Positions 4,466 to 32,888 of a DNA stretch of 34,012 bases are shown in pieces. Position numbers and translations under genes: made by a program. The notes under the pieces were generated by a model, which searched no databases, had not been told where the DNA came from, and saw only the letters and a list, made by a program, of their open reading frames with translations. Each line of letters begins with the position of its first letter. Positions within the stretch are counted from its first letter, which is position 1. Origin of the DNA: an uncultured Alphaproteobacteria bacterium (lineage in GTDB: Bacteria; Pseudomonadota; Alphaproteobacteria; HIMB59; GCA-002718135); NCBI GenBank assembly GCA_902602135.1, contig CACKQA010000004.1, positions 1 to 34,012 of the forward strand. Reading direction: 5' to 3'.

Positions 4466-4543
4466 TCCTTTTAAATAAATAACAACCTCTGACTTGATAG
4501 ATTAACAATTAAAAATAATTAGTGATTATTGTGAAGAAGATTA

Positions 4544-4960
4544 ATGAATATTAGATTTTATATAAAGATCATAGTTGGTTTATTGATTTTTAAATTTGCA
4601 TTTGCAGAAGTTATAGATGTTGATGATCAAGAAATGATAAAATTATCAAACGATAATATTCCAATTGTAGATGTAAGAAGAAGTTCAGAGTGGGATCAAA
4701 CCGGCGTTATTCCAAATAGTATTTTACTAACTTTTTTTGATGATGAGGGGAATTATAATTTTGATGAATGGTACGAAAAATTACAACTAGAAATAAATGT
4801 AACCGATCCAATAATCTTAATTTGTAGATCAGGAAAAAGGTCTAAGGTAATTGCAAATATGATAGATGAGAAATTTAATACTATTATTTACAATGCACAA
4901 AGTGGAATAAACTCTTGGATTAGTAAAAAATTAATAACAGTTGAGCATCAAACTAATTAA
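4544..4960 (+). CDS. Secreted rhodanese-like domain protein
   Basis: Signal peptide; NIPIVDVRRSSEWDQTGVIPNS and active-site loop ICRSGKRS. Confidence 0.85.
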   Translation: MNIRFYIKIIVGLLIFKFAFAEVIDVDDQEMIKLSNDNIPIVDVRRSSEWDQTGVIPNSILLTFFDDEGNYNFDEWYEKLQLEINVTDPIILICRSGKRSKVIANMIDEKFNTIIYNAQSGINSWISKKLITVEHQTN

Positions 4961-15136: not shown

Positions 15137-18100
15137 ATGAAGAAAATTGTCCTTTCACTTTTTCTAATTCTATCTAGTTCTCAATTATTTGCTTTTGATT
15201 TTAATACATTTCAGGAGGTTGATAAATGTATTAAATATTCTGAAGATCTTGAGCAATATAAAAAGAATTTTCAAAGCTGTTTAGACTCTAAAAATTTATC
15301 AATAGAAAATAATTTAACCCAATCTTTTAAAACAAAATTACCAAAGAATTTTCATGAAAGAGTTGATTTTGGCAAAAATGTAAATCAATTTATAGATAAA
15401 AAATATATCCCTAATAATCCTGAATTCACAATTGATGAATTTATCAAAAAATATCCAAATCATATTTTTACAATTGATAGTTTATTAAGAGGTAAAAATG
15501 CAATTATCAGTGATTATCAATTAAGAAAATTAGATCTTCTTCCAAAATTATTTTCAAATATTCAAACTATTGAAATAATTGAAAATAATAAAAGTGAAAA
15601 ACAGATCAAACAAGAAACAAATTTTGCTACTCTTTTAACTGGTTATTTTCTATACCTTGTTACTAGTGACGATGAGATACAATGTAATCAGAATGCTTCT
15701 CTTTCACAGACTTCTACATCAATTGATGAGAATTCATCAGATACTATCGATTTTACTATATCAGGTGCTCCTGCTGGTGTTACTTATAGTGTAAATACTA
15801 GTGGCACAGCTACAGAAGGAACTGATTATGAGAGTATAAGTGATATAACAATTAATAGCTCTACAACAACTTTTTCGTTAACTTTAATAGATGACTCAAT
15901 ATCAGATATAAATGAAACTGTTGATATTAGTCTTACACCAACTGGTGGAGATATTACATTTTGTAAAAATACTTTAAACTCTCAAACAATAACAATTGTA
16001 GATAATGAAGCAGCTCCAACTATTACATTGTCAGCTAGTGCATCTAGTATTGCTGAAAACGCTGGGTCATCAATTACTCTTACAGCAACGAGTTCCATAG
16101 TATCTGGTTCAGACATTACAGTGTCATTTGATACTTCCGGCACAGCAACGGAAGGAACTGATTATGGAACAATATCAGATATTACTATTTCAGCTGGCTC
16201 TACAACAGGCACAACAACATTCACACCCACTGATGATAGTATGTATGAAACATCTACAGATGAGACAGCAACTGTTGCTATTGGAACTGTATCAGGAGGA
16301 GGGGCAACAGAAAGCGGTTCTCAATCAGTAACATTAACGATTGAGGAAAATGATAGTGCACCGACAGTTACATTGGCTGCTAGTTCATCGAGTATTGCAG
16401 AGAATGCTGGCACTTCTATTACTTTAACAGCAACCTTATCAAACCCTACAAGTGCAGATGTAACTGTTTCAATTGGAACATCTGGAAGTGCAACAGAAGG
16501 AACAGATTACGGAACAATTTCTGATATTACTATTTCTTCTGGTGATACTACGGGAACAGCTTCATTTACTCCAACAGATGATAATTTATATGAAACAAGT
16601 ACTGATGAAACAGCAACAGTTTCTATTACCGGTGTCTCCGGTGGAAGTGCTACTGAAAGTGGATCTCAATCAGTAACACTAACAATTGAAGAGAATGAAA
16701 GTGCGCCAACTGTAACTCTAACAACGAGTGCAACAAATATTGATGAAAATTCTGGATCTTCATTAACTTTAACTGCAACGTTATCAGTTGCAACAACCGC
16801 TGATGTTACAGTTACTATTTCAACTTCAGGTAGTGCTACAGAAGGAACTGATTATACCGATGGAAGTGGAAATATCGATGATCTTGTTATTTCAGCTGGC
16901 AATACAACAGAGACAATTAGTTTTAAACCAACTGATGATAGTGTGTATGAAGGAGATGAAACAGCAACAATTTCTATTGATAGTGTTTCAGGTGGTGAAG
17001 CATCAGAAAATGGAACGCAAGCTGTTACCATTACAATAAACGAAAATGAATCTGCGCCAACAGTCACTCTTTCAGTTAGTGCATCTAGTATCGCAGAAAA
17101 TTCTGGGTCAACATTAACGATTACAGCTACATCATCCATTGTTGCAGATGAAAATATTACTGTTGGAATCTCCACCTCTGGTACTGCTACAGAAGGAACG
17201 GATTACGGAACAATTTCTGATATTACAATTACAGCTGGTAATACAACTGGAACAGCAACGTTTGATCCAACTGATGATAGTATTTCTGATGTAGCCGAAA
17301 CAGCCATTGTTGCCATAAGTAGTGTCTCAGGAGCTGATGCAACAGAGAGTGGATCACAATCAGTTACAATTACGATAAATGATAATGAAGCAACGCCAAC
17401 AGTTACATTAACTGTTAGTGCAACATCGATTGCAGAGAATGCAGGTTCATCATTAACTTTAACAGCAACGAGTTCAATTGTTTCAGGTTCAGACATTACA
17501 GTTACACTTAGTACAAGTGGTACAGCAACAGAGGGAACAGATTATGGATCTCTCTCTGATATTACCATTAGTGCTGGCTCTACAACAGGCACAACAACAT
17601 TCACACCCACTGATGATAGTATGTATGAAACATCTACAGATGAGACAGCAACTGTTGCTATTGATACAGTTAGTGGTGGTTCAGCAACAGAAAATGGAAC
17701 ACAGTCTGTTACCATTACAATAAACGAAAATGAATCTGCGCCAACAGTAACACTTGCAGCTAGTGCAACAAGTATTGCTGAGAACGCTGGATCATCAATT
17801 ACAATTACTGCATCATTAAGCGGAACAACAAGTCAAGATGTAACTGTTTCATTATCAAGTTCTAGCACGGCAACAGAAGGAACAGATTATGGAACTGTTT
17901 CGGATATAACTATTACTTCTGGATCAACGTCTGGAACAGCTACGTTTACACCAACAGATGATAGTATTTATGATGCAACGTCAAATGAAACAGCTATCCT
18001 TTCTATTAGTGGTGTTTCAGGTGGTGGAGCAACCGAAAGTGGTGATCAAAAAGTTACCATTACAATAACGGATAATGAAAGTGCGCCAACAGTTACTTTA

Positions 18101-21100
18101 AGTGTTAGCGCAACATCGATTGCAGAAAACGCAGGATCATCTCTCACATTAACAGCAACGTTATCAGGTGCAACATTCCAAGATGTTACCGTTGGTATTG
18201 ATACATCGGGAGGTGCAACAGAAGGAACAGACTATACGGATGGAAGTGGCGTCATTAATGACATTACTATTAGTGCAGGAAGCACATCAGGCACCGTTAA
18301 TTTCACACCAACAGATGATTCCGTTTACGAGGATGATGAAAGTGCAACAATTTCAATTGGTAGTGTGTCTGGTGGTGGTGCATCCGAGAGTGGAACACAA
18401 TCTGTTACAATAACAATTTCTGAAAATGAATCTGCCCCGACAGTTACTTTAAGTGTAAGTGCAACGTCTATTGCAGAGAATGCAGGATCATCTTTAACAA
18501 TTACTGCAACTCTATCTGGTGCAACAGATGAGAATGTTACAGTAGGAATAGATACAGCAGGTACAGCAACAGAGGGGACAGATTATACTGATGGTTCTGG
18601 TAATCTAGATGATATTACAATTTCAGCTGGATCAACAACAGGCACTGTTTCTTTTACACCTAGTGATGACTCAGGTGATCCTGTTTATGAAGAAAATGAA
18701 ACAGCTATTATTTCTATTGGATCTGTTTCTGGAGGTGGTGCAACAGAAAGTGGTTCGCAGTCAGTTACTATAACGATTACAGAAAATGAAAGTGCGCCTA
18801 CAGTTACTTTAACAAGAAGTGCTGCATCGATTGCTGAAAATTCAGGCTCTTCAGTTACTTTAACAGCGACTCTTTCTATTAAAGTCGATGAAGCGGTAAC
18901 AGTGTCTCTGAGTACAAGTGGTGCTGCAACAGAAGGAACGGACTATACAGATGGAAGTGGTAACTTAGATGACATAACTATATCTGCTGGTTCAACAACT
19001 GGCACGGTATCATTTACACCAACAGATGACAGCGTGTATGAAGGTGATGAAGCAGCTGTTATTGCTATTGATACAGTTTCTGGTGGTGGTGCAAGTGAAG
19101 ATGGAACACAATCTGTTACTGTTACTATTTCTGAAAATGAATCTGCACCAACTGTAACTCTCGCTGTTAGTGCAACAAGTATAGCTGAAAATTCAGGATC
19201 ATCTCTTACTTTAACTGCCACATTATCAAATGTTGCCGATGAAAATGTAACTGTATCTCTAAGTACAAGTGGTGCAGCAACCGAAGGTACGGATTATACG
19301 GATGGATCAGGCAATCTAGATGATATCACTATTACAGCTGGTTCAACAACAGGTACAGTAAGTTTCACACCAACCGATGATAGTGTGTATGAAGATGATG
19401 AAGCTGCTGTTATAGCGATTGATACGGTATCAGGTGCTGATGCAACAGAAAGTGGAACGCAATCAGTTACCGTTACGATTACAGAAAATGAAAGTGCACC
19501 AACAGTTACACTTGCGGTAAGTGCAACGTCAATAGCAGAGAATGCAGGATCATCTCTAACTTTAACTGCAACGTTATCTGGTGCAACTGATGAAACTGTA
19601 ACTGTAGCACTTGGAACTTCTGGAAGTGCAACAGAAGGAACGGACTATACCGATGGAAGTGGCAATGTTGATGACATAACCATTAGTGCTGGTAGCACTA
19701 CTGGAACAGTAAACTTTACACCAACTAATGACAGTGTGTATGAAGGTGATGAAACAGCAACAATTGCTATCACCGGTGTATCTGGAGGAGGAGCGAGTGA
19801 GAGTGGATCTCAATCTGTTACTATTACCATTTCAGAAGATGAAAGTGCACCAACTGTTACTTTAAGTGTTAGTGCAACAAGTATAGCAGAAAATGCTGGA
19901 TCATCATTAACATTAACGGCGACACTATCAGGAGCTGCTGATGAAGCTGTTATTGTTGCTTTATCAACGTCAGGTACATCAACAGAGGGAACCGATTACA
20001 CGGATGGATCAGGTAACATCGATGATATTACTATTAGTGCAGGTTCTACAACAGGGACGGTCAACTTTACACCAACTGATGATTCAGTTTATGAAGGAAA
20101 TGAAACAGCCATTGTTGCGATTAGTAGTGTCTCAGGTGCTGATGCTAGTGAAAGTGGATCACAATCTGTTACGATTACAATTACAGAAAATGAAAGTGCA
20201 CCAACAATTACATTAACAAGAAGTGCAGCATCAATTGATGAAAATTCTGGTTCGACTATCACATTAACGGCGACTATTTCTGGTGTAACAGATTCAGCTG
20301 TTACCGTCGCGCTTGATACGTCTGGTACCGCAACGGAGGGAACAGACTATGGAACAATTTCGGATATTACCATTAGTGCAGGTGCAACAACAGGTACAGC
20401 AACACTCGATCCAACAGATGATAATATTTATGAGGGTGATGAAACGGCAACCATTGATATTGCAAGTGTTTCAGGAAAATCTGGTGTTACTGAAAGTGGA
20501 ACACAACAAGTAAGTGTTACAATTGCAGAAAATGAGTCAGCGCCAACCGTCACACTTGCAACAAGTGCAACATCCATTGCAGAAAATGCTGGTACATCGT
20601 TAACACTAACTGCAACTCTATCTGTTGCAACAACCGCTGATGTTACTGTTGCTTTAAGCACAAGTGGTACCGCAACAGAGGGAACGGATTATACGGATGG
20701 TGCAGGAAATTTAGATGACATTGTTATTTCAGCTGGCTCAACAACAGGTACAGTAAGCTTTACACCTACAAATGATAGTTTGTATGATGCAGCATCAGAT
20801 GAAACTGCAACAATTGCTATAAGTGGTGTCTCGGGTGGAAGTGCTAGTGAGAGTGGATCGCAATCAGTAACAATTACAATAACAGATGATGATAGTGCAC
20901 CAACTGTTACATTAGCAGCATCATCAACTAGTATTGCAGAAAATTCATCTTCAACTATTACGTTAACAGCGACACTATCAAATGCAACCTATCAAGATGT
21001 AACTGTTTCAATTGGAACATCTGGTACGGCAACAGAGGGAACGGATTATGGTAATATATCTGATATTACTATTAGTGCTGGTTCCACAACAGGAACGGCA

Positions 21101-24100
21101 ACTTTTGATCCAACCGATGACTCCGATGAAACAGATACTGTTACTGCAACGATTGCCATTAGTGGTGTCAGTGGTGGAGGTGCTACAGAGAGTGGTTCAC
21201 AATCTGTTACGATTAGTATTTTAGATGATGAAAGTGTTCCGCGTGTTACCTTAACTGTTAGTGCAACATCGATTGCAGAAAATGCTGGTACATCCTTAAC
21301 CTTAACGGCAACGCTATCTAAAACGGCATCAGAAGATGTTACCGTTACGCTTGGTACGTCTGGTGCTGCCACAGAAGGAACAGATTATGGATCTTTATCA
21401 AATATTACTGTTACTGCTGGAGCATTAACAGGAACTACGACTTTTACTCCAACAGATGATAGTATTTATGATGCAACATCAAATGAAACTGCAACGGTGT
21501 CTATTGATTCAGTTTCAGGAGGTGATGCATTAGAAAATGGAACTCAATCAGTAACAATTACTATTACCGATAATGAAAGTGCACCAACCGTAACTTTATC
21601 AAGAAGTGCTGCAGCTATAGATGAAAATTCTTCTAGCACAGTTACCATAACCGCAACGTTATCGAATGCAACGTATCAAGATGTTACTGTCAGTATTGGT
21701 GCATCGGGTGGAACAGAAGGAACAGACTATGCAACTATTTCTGATATTACGATTAGTGCAGGTAGCACAACAGGGACAACGTCTCTTGATCCAACTGATG
21801 ACTCGGTTTACGAAGATGATGAGGTAGTCACTGTTACAATTGATGGAGTCTCTGGTGGAAGTGCTAGTGAAAGTGGATCACAATCAGTTTCCATAACAAT
21901 TACAGAAAATGAATCTGCACCAACCGTAACTTTATCTGTTAGTGCAACATCGATTGCAGAAAACGCAGGAACATCCTTAACACTAACGGCAACTTTAAGT
22001 GGTGCAACAGATGAAACAGTAACTGTTGGAATTGATACAGGTGGCACTTCAACAGAAGGAACCGACTATACCGATGGAAGTGGTAATGTTGATGATATTA
22101 CCATTAGTGCTGGAAGTACAACAGGTACAGTCAACTTTACACCAACTGATGACTCTATTTATGAAGGAAATGAAACTGCGATTATTTCTATTGGATCAGT
22201 TTCAGGTGGTGGAGCATCAGAGAGTGGAACGCAATCCGTTACTATTACGATTACAGAAAATGAAAGTGCACCAACAGTTGCTTTAAGTGTTAGTGCAACT
22301 AGTATTGCAGAGAATTCCGGATCATCTCTTACTATTACAGCAACACTATCTGGAAAAGCAGATGAAGATGTAACTGTTACAATTGGAACAGGTGGAACAA
22401 GTACAGAGGGAACTGATTATACCGATGGAAGTGGAAATTTAAATGACATAACTATTTCTGCTAATTCAACAACTGGGACTGTTACATTTACTCCTACTGA
22501 CGATAGTGTGTATGAGGGAAGTGAAACAGCAATAGTTTCTATTGACGGCGTATCAGGAGCGGATGCAAGTGAAGACGGAACACAAGCTGTAACTATTACA
22601 ATAACGGATAATGAATCAGCACCAACTGTAACACTTGCTGTTAGTGCGACGAGTATTGCGGAGAATGCAGGATCATCTTTAACCTTAACGGCAACATTAA
22701 GTGGTGTAACAGATGCAGATATTACTGTTACTTTAGATACTGCTGGAACAGCAACTGAAGGAACAGATTATACCGATGGCTCGGGCAACATCGATGATAT
22801 TACTATTAGTGCTGGTGCAACAACAGGAACGGTATCGTTTACACCAACAGATGATAGTATTTATGATGCAACGTCAAATGAAACTGCAACCATATCAATT
22901 AATGGCGTTTCAGGAAAAACGGGTGTTGCTGAAAATAGTACACCGCAAGCAGTTACGATAACAATAACAGATAATGAATCAGCACCAACTGTTACTCTTA
23001 CTTCGAATTCTTATACAATGGCTGAAGATGCTGGTGGTTACCATGTAATAAGAGCATCATTATCAGGTGCAACTTATGAAGACGTAACAGTATCAATAGA
23101 TGGAACTGGAGGTACAGCAACAGAAGGAACAGATTTTGGAACGGTATCTGATATAACTATTAGTGCTGGAAATACATTAGGAACAACTACATTTACTGCA
23201 ATTGATGATAGTATTTATGAAGGAAATGAAACAGCAGGTATTTCTGTGTCTGGTGTGTCGGGTGGTGGAGCAAGTGAAAGCAGCCCTCAAGCTTTTAATA
23301 TTACAATTACAGAAAATGAAAGTGCACCAACAGTAACTTTAAGTACTAGTGGATCAAGTATAGCAGAGAATGCTGGATCATCTCTAACATTAACAGCAAC
23401 ATTATCAGTTGCAACTACTGCTGATGTTACAGTTGCATTATCAACTTCTGGAACAGCAACAGAAGGAACCGATTATACGGATGGAAGTGGAGCTATAGAT
23501 GACATCACCATTAGCGCTGGTAGTACAACAGGAACAGTTAACTTTACACCAACTAATGACAGTGTGTATGAAGGTGATGAAACTGCAACAATTGCTATTA
23601 GTAGTGTTTCGGGTGGAAGTGCAACAGAGAGTGGATCACAATCGGTTACGATTACAATTTCTGAAGATGAATCTGCGCCAACAGTCACTCTTTCAACAAG
23701 TGCAACATCCATTGCGGAGAATGCTGGATCATCTTTAACCATTACAGCAACCTTATCTACAGCTACGACTGCGGATGTAACCGTTACTATTGGAACAGCT
23801 GGTACCGCCACCGAAGGAACCGATTACACGGATGGTTCCGGTAATCTCGATGATATTACGATTAGTGCTGGTAGTACAACTGGTACCGTAAGTTTCACAC
23901 CTACAGATGATGCATCAGATCCTGTCTATGAAGAAAATGAAACAGCTATCATTTCAATTGATGGTGTCTCTGGGGGAAGTGCTAGTGAGAGTGGATCACA
24001 ATCGGTAACAATTACAATTACAGAAAATGAAAGTGCACCAACAGTAACATTAGCAAGAAGTGCTGCATCAATTGCTGAGAACTCTGGATCGTCAGTTACT

Positions 24101-27100
24101 TTAACGGCGACTCTTTCTATTAAAGTTGATGAAGCAGTAACAGTTGCCTTAAGTACAAGTGGTGCTGCAACAGAAGGTACTGATTACACTGATGGAAGTG
24201 GTAATTTAGATGATATTACAATTAGTGCAGGCAATACAACTGGTACAGTAAGTTTCACACCAACAGATGATTCTGTTTACGAGGATGATGAAGCTGCAAC
24301 AATTGCTATTGATACCGTATCTGGAGGAGGGGCAAGTGAGAGTGGTTCTCAATCTGTAACTGTAACAATAACAGAAAATGAATCAGAGCCAACAGTAACG
24401 CTTGCAGTAAGCGCAACATCGATTGCAGAGAATGCAGGAACATCATTAACATTAACAGCAACATTATCTGGTGCAACCGATCAAAATGTTACTGTTGTAT
24501 TAGGTACATCTGGTACAGCAACAGAAGGAACGGATTATACTGATGGCAGTGGCAATGTTGATGATATTACGATTAGTGCTGGTAGTACCACTGGTACTGT
24601 TTCGTTTACGCCAACTGATGATAGTGTCTATGAAGGAAATGAAACTGCTACAATTGCCATAAGTAGCGTTACCGGTGAAGCAAGTGAAAGTGGAACACAG
24701 GCAGTTACCATTACCATAACAGAAAATGAAAGTGCACCAACCGTAACTTTATCTGTTAGCGCAACATCCATTGCGGAAAATGCTGGAACATCTTTAACTT
24801 TAACAGCAACATTATCTGGTGCAACAGATGAAGCAGTAACTGTTGCTTTAAGTACAAGTGGTACAGCAACAGAGGGTACCGATTACACTGATGGTAGTGG
24901 ATCAATAGACGATATTACTATTAGTGCAGGAAGTACAACAGGTACAGTCAACTTCACACCAACTGATGATTCAGTTTATGAAGGAAGTGAAACAGCAACA
25001 ATTGCTATTAGTAGTGTTTCAGGTGGAAGTGCCACAGAGAGTGGATCACAATCGGTTACGATTACGATTACAGATAATGAAAGTGCGGGAAGTGTTACTT
25101 TAACTGTTAGTGCAACTTCTATTGCAGAGAATGCCGGTACTTCTCTTACTATAACTGCAACTCTCTCTAGTACAAGTGATGAAGATGTTACTGTTGCTCT
25201 ATCAACTTCTGGCACAGCAACTGAAGGAACCGATTACACGGATGGAAGTGGAGCAATAGATGATATTACAATTAGTGCCGGTGCAACAACTGGAACAGTT
25301 AACTTTACTCCAACAGATGATTCAGTTTATGAAGGAAATGAAACTGCTACGATTGCTATCAGTAGTGTCTCAGGTGGAGATGCATCAGAAAGTGGTGATC
25401 AATCAGTTACAGTCACAATAACAGAAAATGAAAGTGCACCAACAGTTACACTAAGTGTTAGTGCAACATCGATTGCAGAGAATGCTGGTACATCTATTAC
25501 CGTAACGGCAACACTATCTGGAGCGACAGATGAAGCAGTCACTGTTGCTTTAAGTACATCTGGAACAGCAACAGAAGGAACGGACTATACAGATGGAAGT
25601 GGTAATGTTGATGATATTACAATTAGTGCTGGTGCAACAACTGGAACAGTAAACTTTACACCAACTGATGACTCTATCTATGAAGGAAATGAAACTGCTA
25701 CTCTTGCTATTAGTGGTGTTTCGGGTGGAAGTGCTACAGAGAGTGGTTCACAATCAGAAACAATTACAATTACGGATAATGAATCAGCACCAACCGTCAC
25801 ACTTGCAACAAGCGCAACATCCATTGCAGAGAATGCTGGTACATCGTTAACACTAACTGCAACGTTATCAGTTGCAACAACAGCTGATGTCACTGTTGCT
25901 CTATCAACTTCTGGTACAGCAACTGAGGGAACAGATTATACCGATGGCAGTGGATCAATTGATGATATTGTAATTTCTGCTGGCTCGACAACAGGAACAG
26001 TTAGTTTTACTCCAACAGATGATAGTATCTATGATGCAACTTCAAATGAAACAGCAACAATAGATATAAGCGGTGTATCTGGAGGTAGTGCAACTGAAAG
26101 TGGAACACAAAATGTAACAATAACAATTACAGATAATGAAAGTGCTCCAACAGTTACATTATCGAAAGGCGCAGATACTATAGATGAAGATTCTTCTAGC
26201 ACTGTTACCATTACAGCAACTTTATCTGTAGCAACATTTCAAGATGTAACGGTTACTATTGATGGAACAGGGGGAACAGGTACGGAGGGAACAGACTTTG
26301 GAACAGTTTCTGATATAACGATAAGTGCAGGTGCTACAACAGGCACTGCAGCAGTAGATCCAACCGATGATTCTGTATATGAAGGAAATGAAACAGCAGG
26401 TATTTCAATTTCAGGAGTTTCAGGAGGTGGTGCTAGTGAAAGTGGTTCTCAATCTGTCACTGTAACAATCACTGAAGATGAATCTGCACCAACAGTTACT
26501 TTAACTGTCAGTGCAACATCTATTGCAGAAAATGCTGGTACATCCTTAACCTTAACAGCAACCTTATCACAAGCAGCAGATGAAGATGTTACTGTTGTTA
26601 TCGGTACATCAGGAACAGCAGTTGAAGGAACCGATTATACGGATGGAAGTGGAGCTATAGATGATATGACTATTAGCGCAGGATCTACATCAACGACTGC
26701 TAACTTTACACCTACAGATGATAGTATTTATGAAATAAATGAAACAGCAACAATTTCGATTAGTAGTGTATCAGGAGCAGATGCATCAATTTCTGGAGGT
26801 TCACAATCTGTAAGTATTACATTAACAAGTAATGAAAGTGCACCAACTGTAACTTTAACTGTAAGTGCTTCTTCAATTAATGAAAATGCTGGTTCATCAG
26901 TTACAATTACCGCAACACTTTCAGGCACAACCTATGAAAATGTAACCGTCGGACTTGGTTTTTCTGGTGCAACTGAAGGTACAGACTTTACAGATGGAAG
27001 CGGGAGTGTTGATGACATAACAATTAGTGCTGGTAATACAACTGGAACTGTCAACTTTACACCGGAAGATGATAGTGTTTACGAAGGAAATGAAACAGTA

Positions 27101-30100
27101 ACAGTTACCATAGATAGTGTTTTAAATGGTGGAGCAGTTGAAAGTGGATCACAATCTAAAACAATTCAAATAACCGATAATGAATCTGCACCAACCGTAA
27201 CGCTTGCAACAAGTGCAACATCTATTGCGGAGAATGCTGGTTCGTCTTTAACATTAACAGCAACATTATCTGGAGCAACTGATTCAGATATTACTGTTGC
27301 CCTTGATACATCAAGTTCAGCAACAGAAGGGACAGATTATGGAGCAGTTTCTGATATTACAATTAGTGCGGGTGCTACAACGGGAACAACAACTTTTACA
27401 CCAACAGATGACTCTATATATGATGCAACATCGAATGAGACAGCTACCATTGCAATTAATGGTGTGTCAGGAAAATCAGGTGTAAACGAAAATGGAGATC
27501 AGTCTGTAACAATTACGATAACAGATAATGAAAGTGCACCGACAGTTACTTTAACAGTTAGTGCAACGTCTATTGCAGAGAATGCAGGAACATCTTTAAC
27601 TTTAACTGCAACATTATCTAATGGTACATATCAAGATGTAACTGTCGCACTAAGTACATCTGGAACAGCTACAGAAGGAACTGATTATACAGATGGAAGT
27701 GGAGCTATAGATGATATGACTATTAGTGCAGGATCAACTACTACTACTGCTAATTTCACACCAACTAATGATTCAACTAATGAAGGAAATGAAACAGCAA
27801 CAATAGCTGTCAGTGGAGTCTCTGGAGGTAGTGCAAGTGAGAGTGGTTCTCAATCTGTAACAATAACTATTACCGATGATGATAATTTTAGTTTTTCAGT
27901 TGATGATGTTACTGTTGCTGAGAATGCAGGTAGTGCAACTATTACTGTAGATATGAGTAGTGCAAGTGTTTCTACAACTACGATACAATATGAAACATCA
28001 AATGGAACAGCAACAGCTGGACCAGACTATGGGGGAACAAGTGGAACTCTTAATTTTAGTGACGGAGATACTTCTGAAACATTTACGGTACTTATTACCA
28101 ATGACTCTGTTTACGAAGGTAATGAAACTTTTACAGTTACTCTAAGGAATGCGTCTGCAGGTTCTATAAGTGATAATGAAGCAACAGTAACAATTACTGA
28201 TGATGAATCTGCACCAACAGTATCGTTAAGCACCAGTGGTACAAGTGTTTATGATAATGGATCTAATATAACCTTAACCGCAACTTCAACACAAGAAGCG
28301 GATGAAGACATAACTGTTGTAATAGGAACAAGTGGTACAGCAACTGAAGGAACAGATTATGCAAATATTTCTGATATTACTATTAGCGCTGGAGCTACTT
28401 CAGGTACGGCAACATTTAATCCAACTGAAGATACAGTTAATGAAGGATCAGAGACTGCAACGATATCTATTTCAAGTGTTTCAGGAGCTGACTCATCAAC
28501 TTCAGGAACAACATCTGTTACCATCACGATAACAGAATATGCATTAAGAACTGCAACTGCATTTGCAGATAGTGGGTCAGACTCAGTAACAAGCTCTACA
28601 ATAGCCGCTGACCCTCAATACAGTAATGTTGATACAACAAATACAGGTACTACAGTTCATCCATATACTCAAATGAGAATAAATGAAGTCCATGCCATGA
28701 CAGATGGTTCAAATTATCTAACAGGTGTTGGACAAACAATTCATATTGCTGATTTTAACTGTAATGATAATCATAAAGTTTATGATAATAAAACTATATA
28801 TAACCTTGATGACGGTGGAGCAGGCGAAAGTACATTTGCTAATGATACACCAAATAATGGCGAATACCATTGCCAAGCAGTTGCTACAATGGCTGCAGGA
28901 GATAATCCGGCTAGTTATAATACAAATCTTATTACTGGAACTAATCTCATAGGTGGTGTTGCTCCTGATGCGGATTTAGTATTATCATCTATACCTAATT
29001 GTCTCGGTTCTTATTGTGCAGATGATTTTGCAAGAGATTTAGATAGTGCAAGAGGTTACAGTGCAGTAGCTTCTAATCAGAGCTGGACTGTTGGTGACAA
29101 AGTAGGTTTCTCCACTTGTGCTTCTGGAGACGCAAATTGCAATTACAATGCTACTGAATTTCAATCTACTATAAATACTTATAGTAGTTATTCAACTGAT
29201 CAATTACTAGGATTTTTATTAGAAGGTACTACTGCTGCTGTATCAGAAGCACAACAATATGTTACAGCTTTAGATAATTTTCAAAATAATGGCGTTGTTA
29301 TTTTTGCCGGTGGAAATTCCTCTTTTGAATCTGACGTTTCTGCAATTGCCGCTCTTCCACAATGGTATTCACAATTAGCTGAAGCATGGCTTGTAGTTAA
29401 TTTCGCAGATTTCAGTGGTACTGATATGTCAGGTATTACAGAATCTGAATTTACCATTTTAGGAAACCCATGTGGAACGGCAAAAGAGTATTGTCTCACA
29501 GTTGATGGTTATCAAGTAAATGTAAATACCTATTATGATGAAAGTACTGGGGCTTCAAATTATAAATTAGCTGATTCGGGCTCATCTTACGCAGCACCCA
29601 TGGTAGCTGGTGGTGTAGCTTTAATTAAACAAGCATTTCCTAATCATACTCCTGAACAAATTACAGATAGAATTCTAGCATCTGCCGATAATAGTTGGTT
29701 TACACCTGCAGGTAATACTACCTTCACAACACACGGAGCAAGTATTACACATGGTTATCATGCAACATGGGGTCACGGGCTACCTGATTTCATGGCAGCA
29801 ATGTCTCCAATAACTTCTAATTCTAATCCTGCTAGTATAACAACAAGTGGAAACTTAAATGATACAGCTCCCTTGGAAGGAACATCTGGTAGCTCTTCTT
29901 CACAAAATCCTGGAAGATATAGTATTGCTTCTTCATCAATATCACTCCCTGGTTTATTGGGAGATGCAATTAGTGAAGGACTTTCAAATGAAACTGGATA
30001 CTTCTATGATGGATTAAATGGTGGATTTAAATTTAATATGTCTTCTCTTCTAAATGATGAAAAGACAATTCAAAAACCACCGGCCTATAATATTAATAAA

Positions 30101-31024
30101 GATTTAGCTAAACTTGGTCAGATAAAAGATAGCACACAATTTGAAAGTGAATTTAATGCAGCTAACGCATTATCATATTCAACGGATGAAGAAAAAACCG
30201 CTTATATTACTTTAGAAGCACCAAATGCAGCAATACAAAAATTTGCCAGCTTTAATAATGGAAATAATTTTTATTTTGGACCTCAACGTAATCCGTTTGT
30301 TGGTAAAACAAATGGTCTTGGTGTGAACAGTGAATACACAATAGGAAATATAAAAGCAGTATTAGGTTATCACAACTCTCAATACAAAGGAGAGGAATTA
30401 GATAATGAATTAAAAACAGAAACTTTAGCTGCTTCCTTTGAATTAGATACAGATGAAAATACAAAAGTAGAATTCTTAATTGGTACGCTAGATGAAAAAG
30501 ATACATTCTTATTCTCAGAAGGAAAAGGAGCGTTAGGATATCGCAATGCAAATCCTAATTCTTTATTTACTGGTATGAATTTGGGGAAAAGAATTGATAA
30601 TTTATCTTTAAGTTTCTCTGGAACACTTGGTCAATCAAGAATGGATAATGCAAATCATAGTTTAATAGAAGGAACAACTAATGTTATTAGTTCAAGTTTA
30701 AATGCATCTGTTTCATTACATAATCTGCAAGGTAAACAAAACAAGTTATCATTCTCAGTTAGTCAGCCAAATAGAATTGAAAGTGGTGCTTTAAAAGTTC
30801 GTATTCCTGGATTAGCAGATGTTGATGGAAATATTCCTTATGCATATAAAGAAATAGATTTAGAAAGCTCAGGAAGACAATTAGATATGAGTATTAATTA
30901 TACTCAATCATTTAGTAATAATGTTGATATTGGAATTAATTTCAGTCAAATTAATGATTACAATCACGTTGAAGGAAATGATTCTGGTATTAGAATGAGT
31001 TTAACTGGCCAATATAAATGGTAA
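15137..31024 (+). CDS. Giant Calx-beta-repeat / S8 subtilase / autotransporter beta-barrel protein (5295 aa)
   Basis: Uninterrupted ORF; signal peptide MKKIVLSLFLILSSSQLFA; about 37 repeats APTVTLxVSATSIAENAGSSLTLTATLS...GTATEGTDY...TDDSVYEGNETATI...GSQSVTITITENES; subtilase motifs; C-terminal barrel ending SLTGQYKW. Confidence 0.93.
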   Translation: MKKIVLSLFLILSSSQLFAFDFNTFQEVDKCIKYSEDLEQYKKNFQSCLDSKNLSIENNLTQSFKTKLPKNFHERVDFGKNVNQFIDKKYIPNNPEFTIDEFIKKYPNHIFTIDSLLRGKNAIISDYQLRKLDLLPKLFSNIQTIEIIENNKSEKQIKQETNFATLLTGYFLYLVTSDDEIQCNQNASLSQTSTSIDENSSDTIDFTISGAPAGVTYSVNTSGTATEGTDYESISDITINSSTTTFSLTLIDDSISDINETVDISLTPTGGDITFCKNTLNSQTITIVDNEAAPTITLSASASSIAENAGSSITLTATSSIVSGSDITVSFDTSGTATEGTDYGTISDITISAGSTTGTTTFTPTDDSMYETSTDETATVAIGTVSGGGATESGSQSVTLTIEENDSAPTVTLAASSSSIAENAGTSITLTATLSNPTSADVTVSIGTSGSATEGTDYGTISDITISSGDTTGTASFTPTDDNLYETSTDETATVSITGVSGGSATESGSQSVTLTIEENESAPTVTLTTSATNIDENSGSSLTLTATLSVATTADVTVTISTSGSATEGTDYTDGSGNIDDLVISAGNTTETISFKPTDDSVYEGDETATISIDSVSGGEASENGTQAVTITINENESAPTVTLSVSASSIAENSGSTLTITATSSIVADENITVGISTSGTATEGTDYGTISDITITAGNTTGTATFDPTDDSISDVAETAIVAISSVSGADATESGSQSVTITINDNEATPTVTLTVSATSIAENAGSSLTLTATSSIVSGSDITVTLSTSGTATEGTDYGSLSDITISAGSTTGTTTFTPTDDSMYETSTDETATVAIDTVSGGSATENGTQSVTITINENESAPTVTLAASATSIAENAGSSITITASLSGTTSQDVTVSLSSSSTATEGTDYGTVSDITITSGSTSGTATFTPTDDSIYDATSNETAILSISGVSGGGATESGDQKVTITITDNESAPTVTLSVSATSIAENAGSSLTLTATLSGATFQDVTVGIDTSGGATEGTDYTDGSGVINDITISAGSTSGTVNFTPTDDSVYEDDESATISIGSVSGGGASESGTQSVTITISENESAPTVTLSVSATSIAENAGSSLTITATLSGATDENVTVGIDTAGTATEGTDYTDGSGNLDDITISAGSTTGTVSFTPSDDSGDPVYEENETAIISIGSVSGGGATESGSQSVTITITENESAPTVTLTRSAASIAENSGSSVTLTATLSIKVDEAVTVSLSTSGAATEGTDYTDGSGNLDDITISAGSTTGTVSFTPTDDSVYEGDEAAVIAIDTVSGGGASEDGTQSVTVTISENESAPTVTLAVSATSIAENSGSSLTLTATLSNVADENVTVSLSTSGAATEGTDYTDGSGNLDDITITAGSTTGTVSFTPTDDSVYEDDEAAVIAIDTVSGADATESGTQSVTVTITENESAPTVTLAVSATSIAENAGSSLTLTATLSGATDETVTVALGTSGSATEGTDYTDGSGNVDDITISAGSTTGTVNFTPTNDSVYEGDETATIAITGVSGGGASESGSQSVTITISEDESAPTVTLSVSATSIAENAGSSLTLTATLSGAADEAVIVALSTSGTSTEGTDYTDGSGNIDDITISAGSTTGTVNFTPTDDSVYEGNETAIVAISSVSGADASESGSQSVTITITENESAPTITLTRSAASIDENSGSTITLTATISGVTDSAVTVALDTSGTATEGTDYGTISDITISAGATTGTATLDPTDDNIYEGDETATIDIASVSGKSGVTESGTQQVSVTIAENESAPTVTLATSATSIAENAGTSLTLTATLSVATTADVTVALSTSGTATEGTDYTDGAGNLDDIVISAGSTTGTVSFTPTNDSLYDAASDETATIAISGVSGGSASESGSQSVTITITDDDSAPTVTLAASSTSIAENSSSTITLTATLSNATYQDVTVSIGTSGTATEGTDYGNISDITISAGSTTGTATFDPTDDSDETDTVTATIAISGVSGGGATESGSQSVTISILDDESVPRVTLTVSATSIAENAGTSLTLTATLSKTASEDVTVTLGTSGAATEGTDYGSLSNITVTAGALTGTTTFTPTDDSIYDATSNETATVSIDSVSGGDALENGTQSVTITITDNESAPTVTLSRSAAAIDENSSSTVTITATLSNATYQDVTVSIGASGGTEGTDYATISDITISAGSTTGTTSLDPTDDSVYEDDEVVTVTIDGVSGGSASESGSQSVSITITENESAPTVTLSVSATSIAENAGTSLTLTATLSGATDETVTVGIDTGGTSTEGTDYTDGSGNVDDITISAGSTTGTVNFTPTDDSIYEGNETAIISIGSVSGGGASESGTQSVTITITENESAPTVALSVSATSIAENSGSSLTITATLSGKADEDVTVTIGTGGTSTEGTDYTDGSGNLNDITISANSTTGTVTFTPTDDSVYEGSETAIVSIDGVSGADASEDGTQAVTITITDNESAPTVTLAVSATSIAENAGSSLTLTATLSGVTDADITVTLDTAGTATEGTDYTDGSGNIDDITISAGATTGTVSFTPTDDSIYDATSNETATISINGVSGKTGVAENSTPQAVTITITDNESAPTVTLTSNSYTMAEDAGGYHVIRASLSGATYEDVTVSIDGTGGTATEGTDFGTVSDITISAGNTLGTTTFTAIDDSIYEGNETAGISVSGVSGGGASESSPQAFNITITENESAPTVTLSTSGSSIAENAGSSLTLTATLSVATTADVTVALSTSGTATEGTDYTDGSGAIDDITISAGSTTGTVNFTPTNDSVYEGDETATIAISSVSGGSATESGSQSVTITISEDESAPTVTLSTSATSIAENAGSSLTITATLSTATTADVTVTIGTAGTATEGTDYTDGSGNLDDITISAGSTTGTVSFTPTDDASDPVYEENETAIISIDGVSGGSASESGSQSVTITITENESAPTVTLARSAASIAENSGSSVTLTATLSIKVDEAVTVALSTSGAATEGTDYTDGSGNLDDITISAGNTTGTVSFTPTDDSVYEDDEAATIAIDTVSGGGASESGSQSVTVTITENESEPTVTLAVSATSIAENAGTSLTLTATLSGATDQNVTVVLGTSGTATEGTDYTDGSGNVDDITISAGSTTGTVSFTPTDDSVYEGNETATIAISSVTGEASESGTQAVTITITENESAPTVTLSVSATSIAENAGTSLTLTATLSGATDEAVTVALSTSGTATEGTDYTDGSGSIDDITISAGSTTGTVNFTPTDDSVYEGSETATIAISSVSGGSATESGSQSVTITITDNESAGSVTLTVSATSIAENAGTSLTITATLSSTSDEDVTVALSTSGTATEGTDYTDGSGAIDDITISAGATTGTVNFTPTDDSVYEGNETATIAISSVSGGDASESGDQSVTVTITENESAPTVTLSVSATSIAENAGTSITVTATLSGATDEAVTVALSTSGTATEGTDYTDGSGNVDDITISAGATTGTVNFTPTDDSIYEGNETATLAISGVSGGSATESGSQSETITITDNESAPTVTLATSATSIAENAGTSLTLTATLSVATTADVTVALSTSGTATEGTDYTDGSGSIDDIVISAGSTTGTVSFTPTDDSIYDATSNETATIDISGVSGGSATESGTQNVTITITDNESAPTVTLSKGADTIDEDSSSTVTITATLSVATFQDVTVTIDGTGGTGTEGTDFGTVSDITISAGATTGTAAVDPTDDSVYEGNETAGISISGVSGGGASESGSQSVTVTITEDESAPTVTLTVSATSIAENAGTSLTLTATLSQAADEDVTVVIGTSGTAVEGTDYTDGSGAIDDMTISAGSTSTTANFTPTDDSIYEINETATISISSVSGADASISGGSQSVSITLTSNESAPTVTLTVSASSINENAGSSVTITATLSGTTYENVTVGLGFSGATEGTDFTDGSGSVDDITISAGNTTGTVNFTPEDDSVYEGNETVTVTIDSVLNGGAVESGSQSKTIQITDNESAPTVTLATSATSIAENAGSSLTLTATLSGATDSDITVALDTSSSATEGTDYGAVSDITISAGATTGTTTFTPTDDSIYDATSNETATIAINGVSGKSGVNENGDQSVTITITDNESAPTVTLTVSATSIAENAGTSLTLTATLSNGTYQDVTVALSTSGTATEGTDYTDGSGAIDDMTISAGSTTTTANFTPTNDSTNEGNETATIAVSGVSGGSASESGSQSVTITITDDDNFSFSVDDVTVAENAGSATITVDMSSASVSTTTIQYETSNGTATAGPDYGGTSGTLNFSDGDTSETFTVLITNDSVYEGNETFTVTLRNASAGSISDNEATVTITDDESAPTVSLSTSGTSVYDNGSNITLTATSTQEADEDITVVIGTSGTATEGTDYANISDITISAGATSGTATFNPTEDTVNEGSETATISISSVSGADSSTSGTTSVTITITEYALRTATAFADSGSDSVTSSTIAADPQYSNVDTTNTGTTVHPYTQMRINEVHAMTDGSNYLTGVGQTIHIADFNCNDNHKVYDNKTIYNLDDGGAGESTFANDTPNNGEYHCQAVATMAAGDNPASYNTNLITGTNLIGGVAPDADLVLSSIPNCLGSYCADDFARDLDSARGYSAVASNQSWTVGDKVGFSTCASGDANCNYNATEFQSTINTYSSYSTDQLLGFLLEGTTAAVSEAQQYVTALDNFQNNGVVIFAGGNSSFESDVSAIAALPQWYSQLAEAWLVVNFADFSGTDMSGITESEFTILGNPCGTAKEYCLTVDGYQVNVNTYYDESTGASNYKLADSGSSYAAPMVAGGVALIKQAFPNHTPEQITDRILASADNSWFTPAGNTTFTTHGASITHGYHATWGHGLPDFMAAMSPITSNSNPASITTSGNLNDTAPLEGTSGSSSSQNPGRYSIASSSISLPGLLGDAISEGLSNETGYFYDGLNGGFKFNMSSLLNDEKTIQKPPAYNINKDLAKLGQIKDSTQFESEFNAANALSYSTDEEKTAYITLEAPNAAIQKFASFNNGNNFYFGPQRNPFVGKTNGLGVNSEYTIGNIKAVLGYHNSQYKGEELDNELKTETLAASFELDTDENTKVEFLIGTLDEKDTFLFSEGKGALGYRNANPNSLFTGMNLGKRIDNLSLSFSGTLGQSRMDNANHSLIEGTTNVISSSLNASVSLHNLQGKQNKLSFSVSQPNRIESGALKVRIPGLADVDGNIPYAYKEIDLESSGRQLDMSINYTQSFSNNVDIGINFSQINDYNHVEGNDSGIRMSLTGQYKW
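15695..28539 (+). repeat. About 37 tandem Calx-beta-like repeats, about 347 nt (116 aa) each
   Basis: Counted by eye from the translation; unit boundaries at (E/D)SAPTVTL. Unit 36 (NFSFSVDDVTVAENAGSATITV...) is the most canonical Calx-beta. Confidence 0.9.
28640..29800 (+). other. Divergent subtilisin-like (S8) peptidase domain within the giant ORF
   Basis: Candidate triad D4539 (IHIADFNCND), H4578 (GEYHCQAVATMAAG), S4817 (GSSYAAPMVAGGVALIKQAFPNHTPEQITDRI); oxyanion Asn in VVIFAGGNS. Confidence 0.8.
30200..31021 (+). other. C-terminal autotransporter-type outer-membrane beta-barrel domain
   Basis: Alternating amphipathic strands; LSFSVSQPNRIESGALKVRIPG...EIDLESSGRQLDMSINYTQSF... resembles barrel C-termini of alphaproteobacterial S8 autotransporters; terminal aromatic W. 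Confidence 0.75.
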
Positions 31025-31025
31025 T

Positions 31026-31571
31026 TTAATAATCTAATTTTTTTTCTACTCTTGGATATTTAGAAGAATTATTATTATCTAAATATTTTATCTTTTCTAA
31101 TAATTCTTTTGATTTGTTTTTTTTGCCAAGTGTAACATATAATTCTGATAAGTATTCAAGAGTAGGGATGTGATTTGGATCTGCCTCAAGAGCAATCATA
31201 TAAAAAGAATACGATTTATCTAAATCAGGATTACTTTGTTTACGGTAAGAATATCCAAGTAGATTATAAAAATCAGCTGTTCTTTCGTTTAAATCTTTTC
31301 GCTTAATAACTTTTTCGAGTAACTTAATAGCTTTTGTATATTTTTTTTCATACACAAGGTCATACGATTTCTTATACAAAATAAATAAATGATCATCTCT
31401 AGAAATACTAATATTAGCTGATGGACCTAGATTGGAATTATTAGTTTCACTGGTATTACTGCTTGAATTATTATTCGATGGAGGGGAACTTTCTTCCTCT
31501 GATGGAGGAGATGCAGCAGAGAAAAGACTGCTAGAAAATAAAAAAATAAATAAAAAAACAAGCTTATGCAT
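31026..31571 (-). CDS. Secreted tetratricopeptide-repeat protein
   Basis: Signal peptide, S/N/P-rich linker, then TPR-like helices (YDLVYEKKYTKAIKLLEKVIKRKDLNERTADFYNLLGYSYRKQ...ALEADPNHIPTLEYLSELYVTLGKKNKSKELLEKI). Confidence 0.75.
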   Translation of the reverse strand: MHKLVFLFIFLFSSSLFSAASPPSEEESSPPSNNNSSSNTSETNNSNLGPSANISISRDDHLFILYKKSYDLVYEKKYTKAIKLLEKVIKRKDLNERTADFYNLLGYSYRKQSNPDLDKSYSFYMIALEADPNHIPTLEYLSELYVTLGKKNKSKELLEKIKYLDNNNSSKYPRVEKKLDY

Positions 31572-31614: not shown

Positions 31615-32070
31615 TTATAAAAAAGTAAAATCTTCAAGAGGGGACATGTGCCCATTTTCAATTTCATCAAGTGTTTGTTGACCTCTCTCCACAAGTTTCA
31701 TAGCATTATTTAAAGCCCAAATTTGCTTAGTAGCAATGTGAACATCAAAAATTTTATTTCCTAATTCAATTTGCTTTTGCTCTTCTTGAATTTTATTGAT
31801 TATATATTCTGCAGCACTTATTGCATTAAAAGAAACATTGGTAAGCTTAGAAGCTTTTCCCATAAAATCTTTTCTCATTTTAATTGTTTCTTTAAGATCA
31901 ATTCTTTCTTTTCTTTTTGAAAGCCAGCCTTCATTTGCTGCTTGTTTTCTTAGCGTTGATAAAGAATAATTAAATTCAGTAGCGATATCTTGAAGAGTAG
32001 GGTACTCATTTCCCTCTCCTTTAATATAATAATTACGCGCTTTAGTGTAATCAGGACGTATTTTTGTCAT
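31615..32070 (-). CDS. HTH protein resembling a phage terminase small subunit
   Basis: KARNYYIKGEGNEYPTLQDIATEFNYSLSTLRKQAANEGWLSKRKERI: HTH followed by the W-x(3)-R-x(3)-I pattern typical of such proteins. Confidence 0.55.
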   Translation of the reverse strand: MTKIRPDYTKARNYYIKGEGNEYPTLQDIATEFNYSLSTLRKQAANEGWLSKRKERIDLKETIKMRKDFMGKASKLTNVSFNAISAAEYIINKIQEEQKQIELGNKIFDVHIATKQIWALNNAMKLVERGQQTLDEIENGHMSPLEDFTFL

Positions 32071-32153: not shown

Positions 32154-32888
32154 TTAGTTTTTTATATTGCTTAAAAGTAAATTTTTAAATTCTTCAACCG
32201 CAACTGTTGCTGGTTTATGAATTGCAAAATCAAATTGTTCTTGATTACTTGATGGTTCCAGATTTAATTCAACTGTTGGTTTACGCATATCTCTAAACAT
32301 CGTAACAAAACCAGCAGCAGGGTAGACTTGTCCAGAAGTACCTATTGAAACAAATAGACTAGATTGCTCTGCTAAATCATGAATTTCATCCATTTGCATT
32401 GGCATTTCACCAAACCACACAATATGAGGCCTCATCTGAGATCCACATTCAGGACATTTATGAGTCTCATTTAGGTCCCCTAACCAATCAAATACATGGT
32501 TTTCATTCATGATACATCTAGCTTTATTAAGTTCACCATGCATATGAATAATTGATGATGATCCTCCAATTTCATGTAAATTATCGATATTTTGTGTAAC
32601 TATATGAATTTTATATGTTTTTTCTAATTCATGTAGTAAAATATGGGCCCTATTTGGCTTTATTCCTGAATTCAGTTCTTTTCGACGTTTATTATAAAAA
32701 TCGTAGACAAGAGTAGGGTTTCTATAGAATCCTTCCGGACTAGCAACATCTTCAATCCTGTGATTATTCCATAATCCATCTGAGTCTCTAAATGTTTCAA
32801 TTCCAGACTCTTTACTTATACCAGCACCCGTTAATACAAAGATCTGGGAATCAGCTGAAATCTGCGGTAATTGTTCCATTTCATACAC
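32154..32888 (-). CDS. cobB: CobB-type NAD-dependent protein deacylase (sirtuin)
   Basis: VLTGAGISKESGIETFRDSDGLW, TQNIDNLHEIGG, MHGEL, CPECGSQMRPHIVWFGEMPMQMDEI, SIGTSGQVYPAAGF, ELNLEPS. Confidence 0.93.
   Translation of the reverse strand: MYEMEQLPQISADSQIFVLTGAGISKESGIETFRDSDGLWNNHRIEDVASPEGFYRNPTLVYDFYNKRRKELNSGIKPNRAHILLHELEKTYKIHIVTQNIDNLHEIGGSSSIIHMHGELNKARCIMNENHVFDWLGDLNETHKCPECGSQMRPHIVWFGEMPMQMDEIHDLAEQSSLFVSIGTSGQVYPAAGFVTMFRDMRKPTVELNLEPSSNQEQFDFAIHKPATVAVEEFKNLLLSNIKN

Follow-up and report, generated by a model that had tools for sequence, protein, structure and literature searches.

Subtilisin-like autotransporters are built from an N-terminal protease followed by a β-helix and a PF03797 translocator (PMC9289746, PMC9977779), and stalks of Calx-beta units are known from adhesins of the T1SS type (PMC12153261). 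In the literature that we searched, no paper joining Calx-beta with a subtilase was found, and co-mention of Calx-beta and autotransporters was rare. The window analysed here, a whole contig of 34,012 bases from a genome in 75 contigs that is 59% complete (G000), contains a single open reading frame (ORF) that unites these elements (positions 15137..31024, plus strand, as for all parts of the protein given below). The ORF reads through uninterrupted and encodes 5295 aa (~530 kDa), and the GC content rises to as much as 0.40 across the stalk, compared to about 0.29 in the surroundings. From the N- to the C-terminus it specifies a Sec-type signal peptide without lipobox, as read from the sequence itself (residues 1-20, 15137..15196; MKKIVLSLFLILSSSQLFAF, kept in the homologues from genomes G046, G096 and G130), a unique domain (residues 21-187, 15197..15697), 37 Calx-beta units (residues 188-4467, 15698..28537), an S8 subtilase domain (residues ~4500-4890, 28634..29806), a short linker and a strand-rich C-terminal region (residues 4936-5295, 29942..31021). 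The domain order given by the first-pass annotation, from signal peptide to predicted C-terminal strands ending in W, is thereby borne out, including its unique N-terminus of ~165 aa, for which we find ~167 aa without family match.

Akin to the group 15 subtilisin-like autotransporters (NalP, SphB1, Ssp and fusolisin), the giant protein has a Sec signal, an S8 domain and a predicted C-terminal barrel. In group 15, however, the protease is N-terminal (~400 aa) and is followed by a β-helix of ~200 aa, whereas the protease of the giant protein begins near residue 4500, behind a tip domain and a 4280-aa Calx-beta stalk, and its barrel is not of the PF03797 type. An AlphaFold2 model of residues 4460-5295 (mean pLDDT 59.8), in which the S8 domain was confident and the C-terminal region moderate, contained no β-helix in the low-confidence stretch between S8 and barrel. 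The giant protein would work like a subtilisin-like autotransporter, yet it departs from that class in the position of the protease, the β-helix and PF03797.

The S8 assignment itself is firm: PF00082 scores 58.1 bits against a curated cut-off of 21.8 (E 1.1e-15), and alignment places the catalytic triad D4539, H4578 and S4817 in order together with the oxyanion residue N4727, the triad being conserved in those relatives whose alignment spans these positions. A Foldseek search with the S8 model returned the passenger of the Ssp autotransporter (8e7f) as nearest structure, with fusolisin lower on the list. The domain is therefore present, as the first-pass annotation had claimed, it lies on the membrane-proximal side by sequence order, and it is presumably proteolytic.

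The claim of a C-terminal β-barrel stood in part. The model predicts, at moderate confidence, ~12 strands from residue ~5045 onwards; they are amphipathic, with alternating hydrophobicity, and the final residue is W. No Pfam family matched the region, and PF03797 was absent from the giant protein, from 26 relatives and from the proteins of its own genome, so that ‘barrel’ is used here as a prediction, albeit a likely one. A search of the PDB with barrel profiles gave nothing convincing. Homology to the autotransporter barrels of E. coli K-12 was considered and dropped, as hhalign against these barrels returned a probability of 2.5%.

What the first-pass annotation held to be unusual, namely the adjacency of S8 domain and barrel, turned out to be ordinary, because the C-terminal family trails S8 domains in ~19% of the sampled alphaproteobacterial genomes (72 of 387), where it mostly ends S8 proteins of 700-1000 aa. 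Some 100 other alphaproteobacterial S8 proteins carry the S8 domain directly ahead of this homologous C-terminal region, as the giant protein does, and they have neither Calx-beta stalk nor N-terminal domain, with the exception of a protein from a distant alphaproteobacterial family (G542; 2019 aa) that shows the same order of architecture with 9 Calx-beta units. In the taxonomic order of G000 itself, S8 likewise directly precedes this barrel in short proteins of ~820 aa in G077, G047, G083, G090 and G157, which bear a lipobox (LFNC-GGGG and similar) as NalP does, while the giant form has none. These short proteins resemble a module that could have given rise to the giant form, and the new part of the architecture is the giant N-terminal stalk together with a tip domain confined to it. 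The short lipobox genes (loci L021-L025) adjoin a small gene for a secreted protein or lipoprotein of 124-132 aa, which might act as partner or inhibitor. Two further S8-barrel proteins, of 3381 aa in G393 (L059, 1872-12014) and of 1919 aa in G215 (L060, 5519-11275), have long N-terminal extensions to which no Pfam family matched.

An HMM built from the stalk units themselves delimited 37 units of 106-121 aa, and Pfam recovered PF03160 in 37 stretches (769.7 bits, E 3.2e-236). The stalk has a net charge of −573, K and R are nearly absent, and sequence comparison, with the calcium-binding domains of NCX1 as the best solved relatives, indicated that the acidic calcium-ligand positions are retained in nearly all units; the number of units and their calcium-binding type thus agree with what had been proposed at first. 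Such an acidic stalk fits a rod in calcium-rich seawater. Calx-beta units measure ~4 nm each; on this assumption the stalk would be ~150 nm long.

Calx-beta stalks also occur in the LapA/Bap-type adhesins and in BapP of Pseudoalteromonas tunicata, by analogy with which the giant protein would be extracellular and calcium-dependent. It is a plausible, although not our favoured, reading that the protein is a giant adhesin for particles or cells, with a tip that binds, a stalk that reaches and an S8 domain that cuts its own base for release. In known systems LapA is released by LapG, and FHA by SphB1. The stalks of BapP and LapA (PMC12153261, PMC7616799), a Pfam score for the LapA domain PF20579 within the stalk and the location of the protease at the base speak for such an adhesin. 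The giant protein differs from these adhesins, however, in having no RTX repeats by Pfam and no adjoining type I secretion genes but a predicted C-terminal barrel of its own and a built-in protease; its distribution is patchy, and the cleavage site is only hypothetical.

This distribution was traced with the N-terminal domain, the presumed tip, which is helical, has invariant cysteines C31 and C48 and was found only with the giant architecture. Among 163 genomes of the order it occurs in five (G000, G046, G096, G092 and G130), always within a giant frame. It was absent from 399 genomes of the phylum except in the window, and absent elsewhere in the samples of the class and the family, and Pfam returned only chance-level matches. 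Viral contigs contained neither this domain nor the 151-aa protein described below. The predicted model of the domain was of poor quality; its hydrophobic helix at residues ~163-177 would be odd for a secreted tip.

The homologues from G046, of the same genus, and from G130, of another family, comprise 5534 aa with 39 units and 5973 aa with 43 units, respectively; that of G096 has at least 4756 aa and reaches the contig edge, and that of G092 is split across two contigs (4646 + 1070 aa). G046 and G130 match contigs of the isolates AG-426-J11 and AG-337-K21, respectively. Besides G000, four species of the order and G542 thus share this N-to-C arrangement. Assemblies often break at long repeats, and several contigs end at the slot in which the gene resides, which could suggest that the ORF is a chimera of separate genes or a decaying repeat gene. 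We regard this as very improbable: the independent assemblies G046, G130 and G096 contain this gene with its units in the same order, which makes misassembly a poor explanation, and the ORF has no stops, an intact triad and, in the stalk, a dN much lower than dS.

Comparison of these homologues revealed that the giant gene is a mosaic. With Lon as background, G000 is 81% identical to G046 and 56% to G130, and synonymous sites are saturated. The N-terminal domain (36%) and the barrel (about 66%) of G000 and G130 are as divergent as expected from this background, and dS is saturated in the barrel as in Lon. Unlike these, units 2-31 of the stalk (residues 294-3784, 16016..26488) are mostly 95-99% identical between the two families, with dS of 0.2-0.6 in most units, and the stalk of G000 is equally close to those of G130 and G046. 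Conversely, units 32-37, the S8 domain and the linker (residues 3785-4935, 26489..29941) diverge within the genus, with dS of about 1 between G000 and G046 against 0.04-0.3 in the barrel and N-terminal domain. For residues 3785-4134, one type is common to G096, G092 and G130 (dS 0.16-0.29). Codon bias was considered as a source of the low stalk dS and rejected, because in a paralogous-unit control the median dS was 0.47 for positional partners and 1.1 for non-partners, and because G000 is as near to G130 as to G046. The stalk has therefore crossed between families, the stalk base and protease are divergent within the genus, and the contrasting dS of the two parts implies that recombination moves the stalk and the base-plus-protease segment independently.

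The genomic setting of the giant gene was unexpected. Downstream lie genes for a secreted 181-aa protein with Pfam TPR repeats (31026..31571, minus strand), for a 151-aa protein that fits no known family and on visual inspection resembles a helix-turn-helix protein (31615..32070, minus strand), for a Sir2-family protein that forms a conserved border of the slot (32154..32888, minus strand; Pfam SIR2, E 3.6e-46) and for a tyrosine recombinase that runs off the contig end (33038..34012, plus strand; Phage_integrase E 2.6e-17 for the full G092 copy), homologues of which occur in 85 of the 163 genomes. The TPR gene is a paralogue particular to the slot and associated with the giant gene: copies 92-100% identical were present only in G000, G046 and G092, the three carriers whose flank is resolved, and elsewhere in the genus there is a core TPR paralogue at about 50%. 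Despite saturated Lon, the TPR, 151-aa and Sir2 genes show dS of only 0.06-0.20 between species, which argues that the slot block has been exchanged as well. We inspected the same slot in 12 genomes that lack the giant gene, identifying defence systems with PADLOC. Five slots held such systems (Mza in G081, DISARM in G026, Zorya I in G090, and type III restriction-modification in G015 and G038), one contained methyltransferases by eye (G082) and one tandem ORFs of no assigned function (G095); in G078, G085, G048, G077 and G071 there was no large cargo beside Sir2. In G130 the giant gene resides at another site, where it is flanked by nuoA and tRNA-Asp; these two stand about 100 bases apart in G118 and G157, and their spacing is variable elsewhere.

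Mosaic evolution across families and the location in a defence slot are the two strongest clues, neither of which was available to the first-pass annotation. Our preferred reading, which we hold with modest confidence, is that of a mobile giant rod that is anchored at the cell surface and carries a protease at its base, as a variant on the subtilase autotransporters. The protein would be exported via its Sec signal, and the C-terminal barrel would insert into the outer membrane, the passenger following it outward; C-terminal insertion would leave the S8 protease just above the membrane. The Calx-beta units, stiffened by seawater calcium, would hold the N-terminal domain off by the predicted length of the stalk, where it may serve contact with other cells, particles or phages away from the envelope, and the protease at the base may trim its own protein, neighbouring surface proteins or captured material. 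In evolution, a short S8-barrel module would have gained stalk and tip, and the gene would have become cargo in a slot bordered by a recombinase. It would be transferred from species to species, and intragenic recombination would swap stalk and protease segments separately. About 1% of a genome of ~1.5 Mb is spent on this one surface protein. Such marine lineages are regarded as streamlined.

Since the slot is filled by anti-phage systems in sister species, the giant protein may be a swappable surface weapon or tether. That the rod and protease block or destroy phage or competing cells, hence their place in an anti-phage slot, is an unlikely alternative. The five slots in which the recombinase-Sir2 pair borders intracellular systems favour it, as does the fact that the divergent part is the protease segment. 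Compared with the PADLOC component sets, however, the giant protein matched no defence system and gave only a weak generic subtilase match (E 1.4e-4); co-location is not function, the G130 copy lies elsewhere, and surface genes are generally carried by flexible islands (PMC4535781). Flexible islands such as GI1 of Haloquadratum likewise combine large acidic surface proteins with recombination (PMC4535781), although the slot studied here differs from them in alternating a giant surface protein with intracellular defence systems. In the window, a Dpp-type peptide ABC transporter is encoded 3-8 kb upstream of the giant gene, and it could be fed by a protease that traps proteins close to the cell and degrades them at the surface. 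This nutritional role is quite doubtful, as in G096 and G130 the giant gene does not have this transporter next to it, those ABC genes that lie upstream in G046 show only distant similarity, and a 37-unit stalk would be unnecessary for digestion at the envelope. The giant protein of Haloquadratum is halomucin.

Returning to the surface-anchored rod, its gene combines modular recombination across families with alternation against intracellular anti-phage systems at one site. The reading that this stalked protease forms an exchangeable defence cassette acting outside the envelope, its segments reshuffled across families, strikes us as improbable; if the link to defence were true, it would suggest an extracellular, protease-armed layer of defence against phages or competitors in ocean bacteria, and a testable role for giant bacterial proteins.

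Several minor observations concern the slot itself. The recombinase gene is mosaic, the G000 copy being 99% identical to that of G092 but 78% to that of G046, while the neighbouring genes are uniformly close. The gene for the 151-aa protein accompanies the giant gene and several defence cargoes; it stands beside most large cargoes and is missing from most empty slots, and may mark or serve cargo insertion. The recombinase-Sir2 slot (loci L102, L104, L112, L110 and L109) is a candidate defence-island hotspot of small-genome marine alphaproteobacteria. In G082 (L103, 7945-11076), the slot neighbourhood contains a tandem array of six type IV pilin-like genes whose leader regions are nearly identical, and in G095 (L108, 2817-14149) five tandem large secreted ORFs of 600-950 aa fill the slot.
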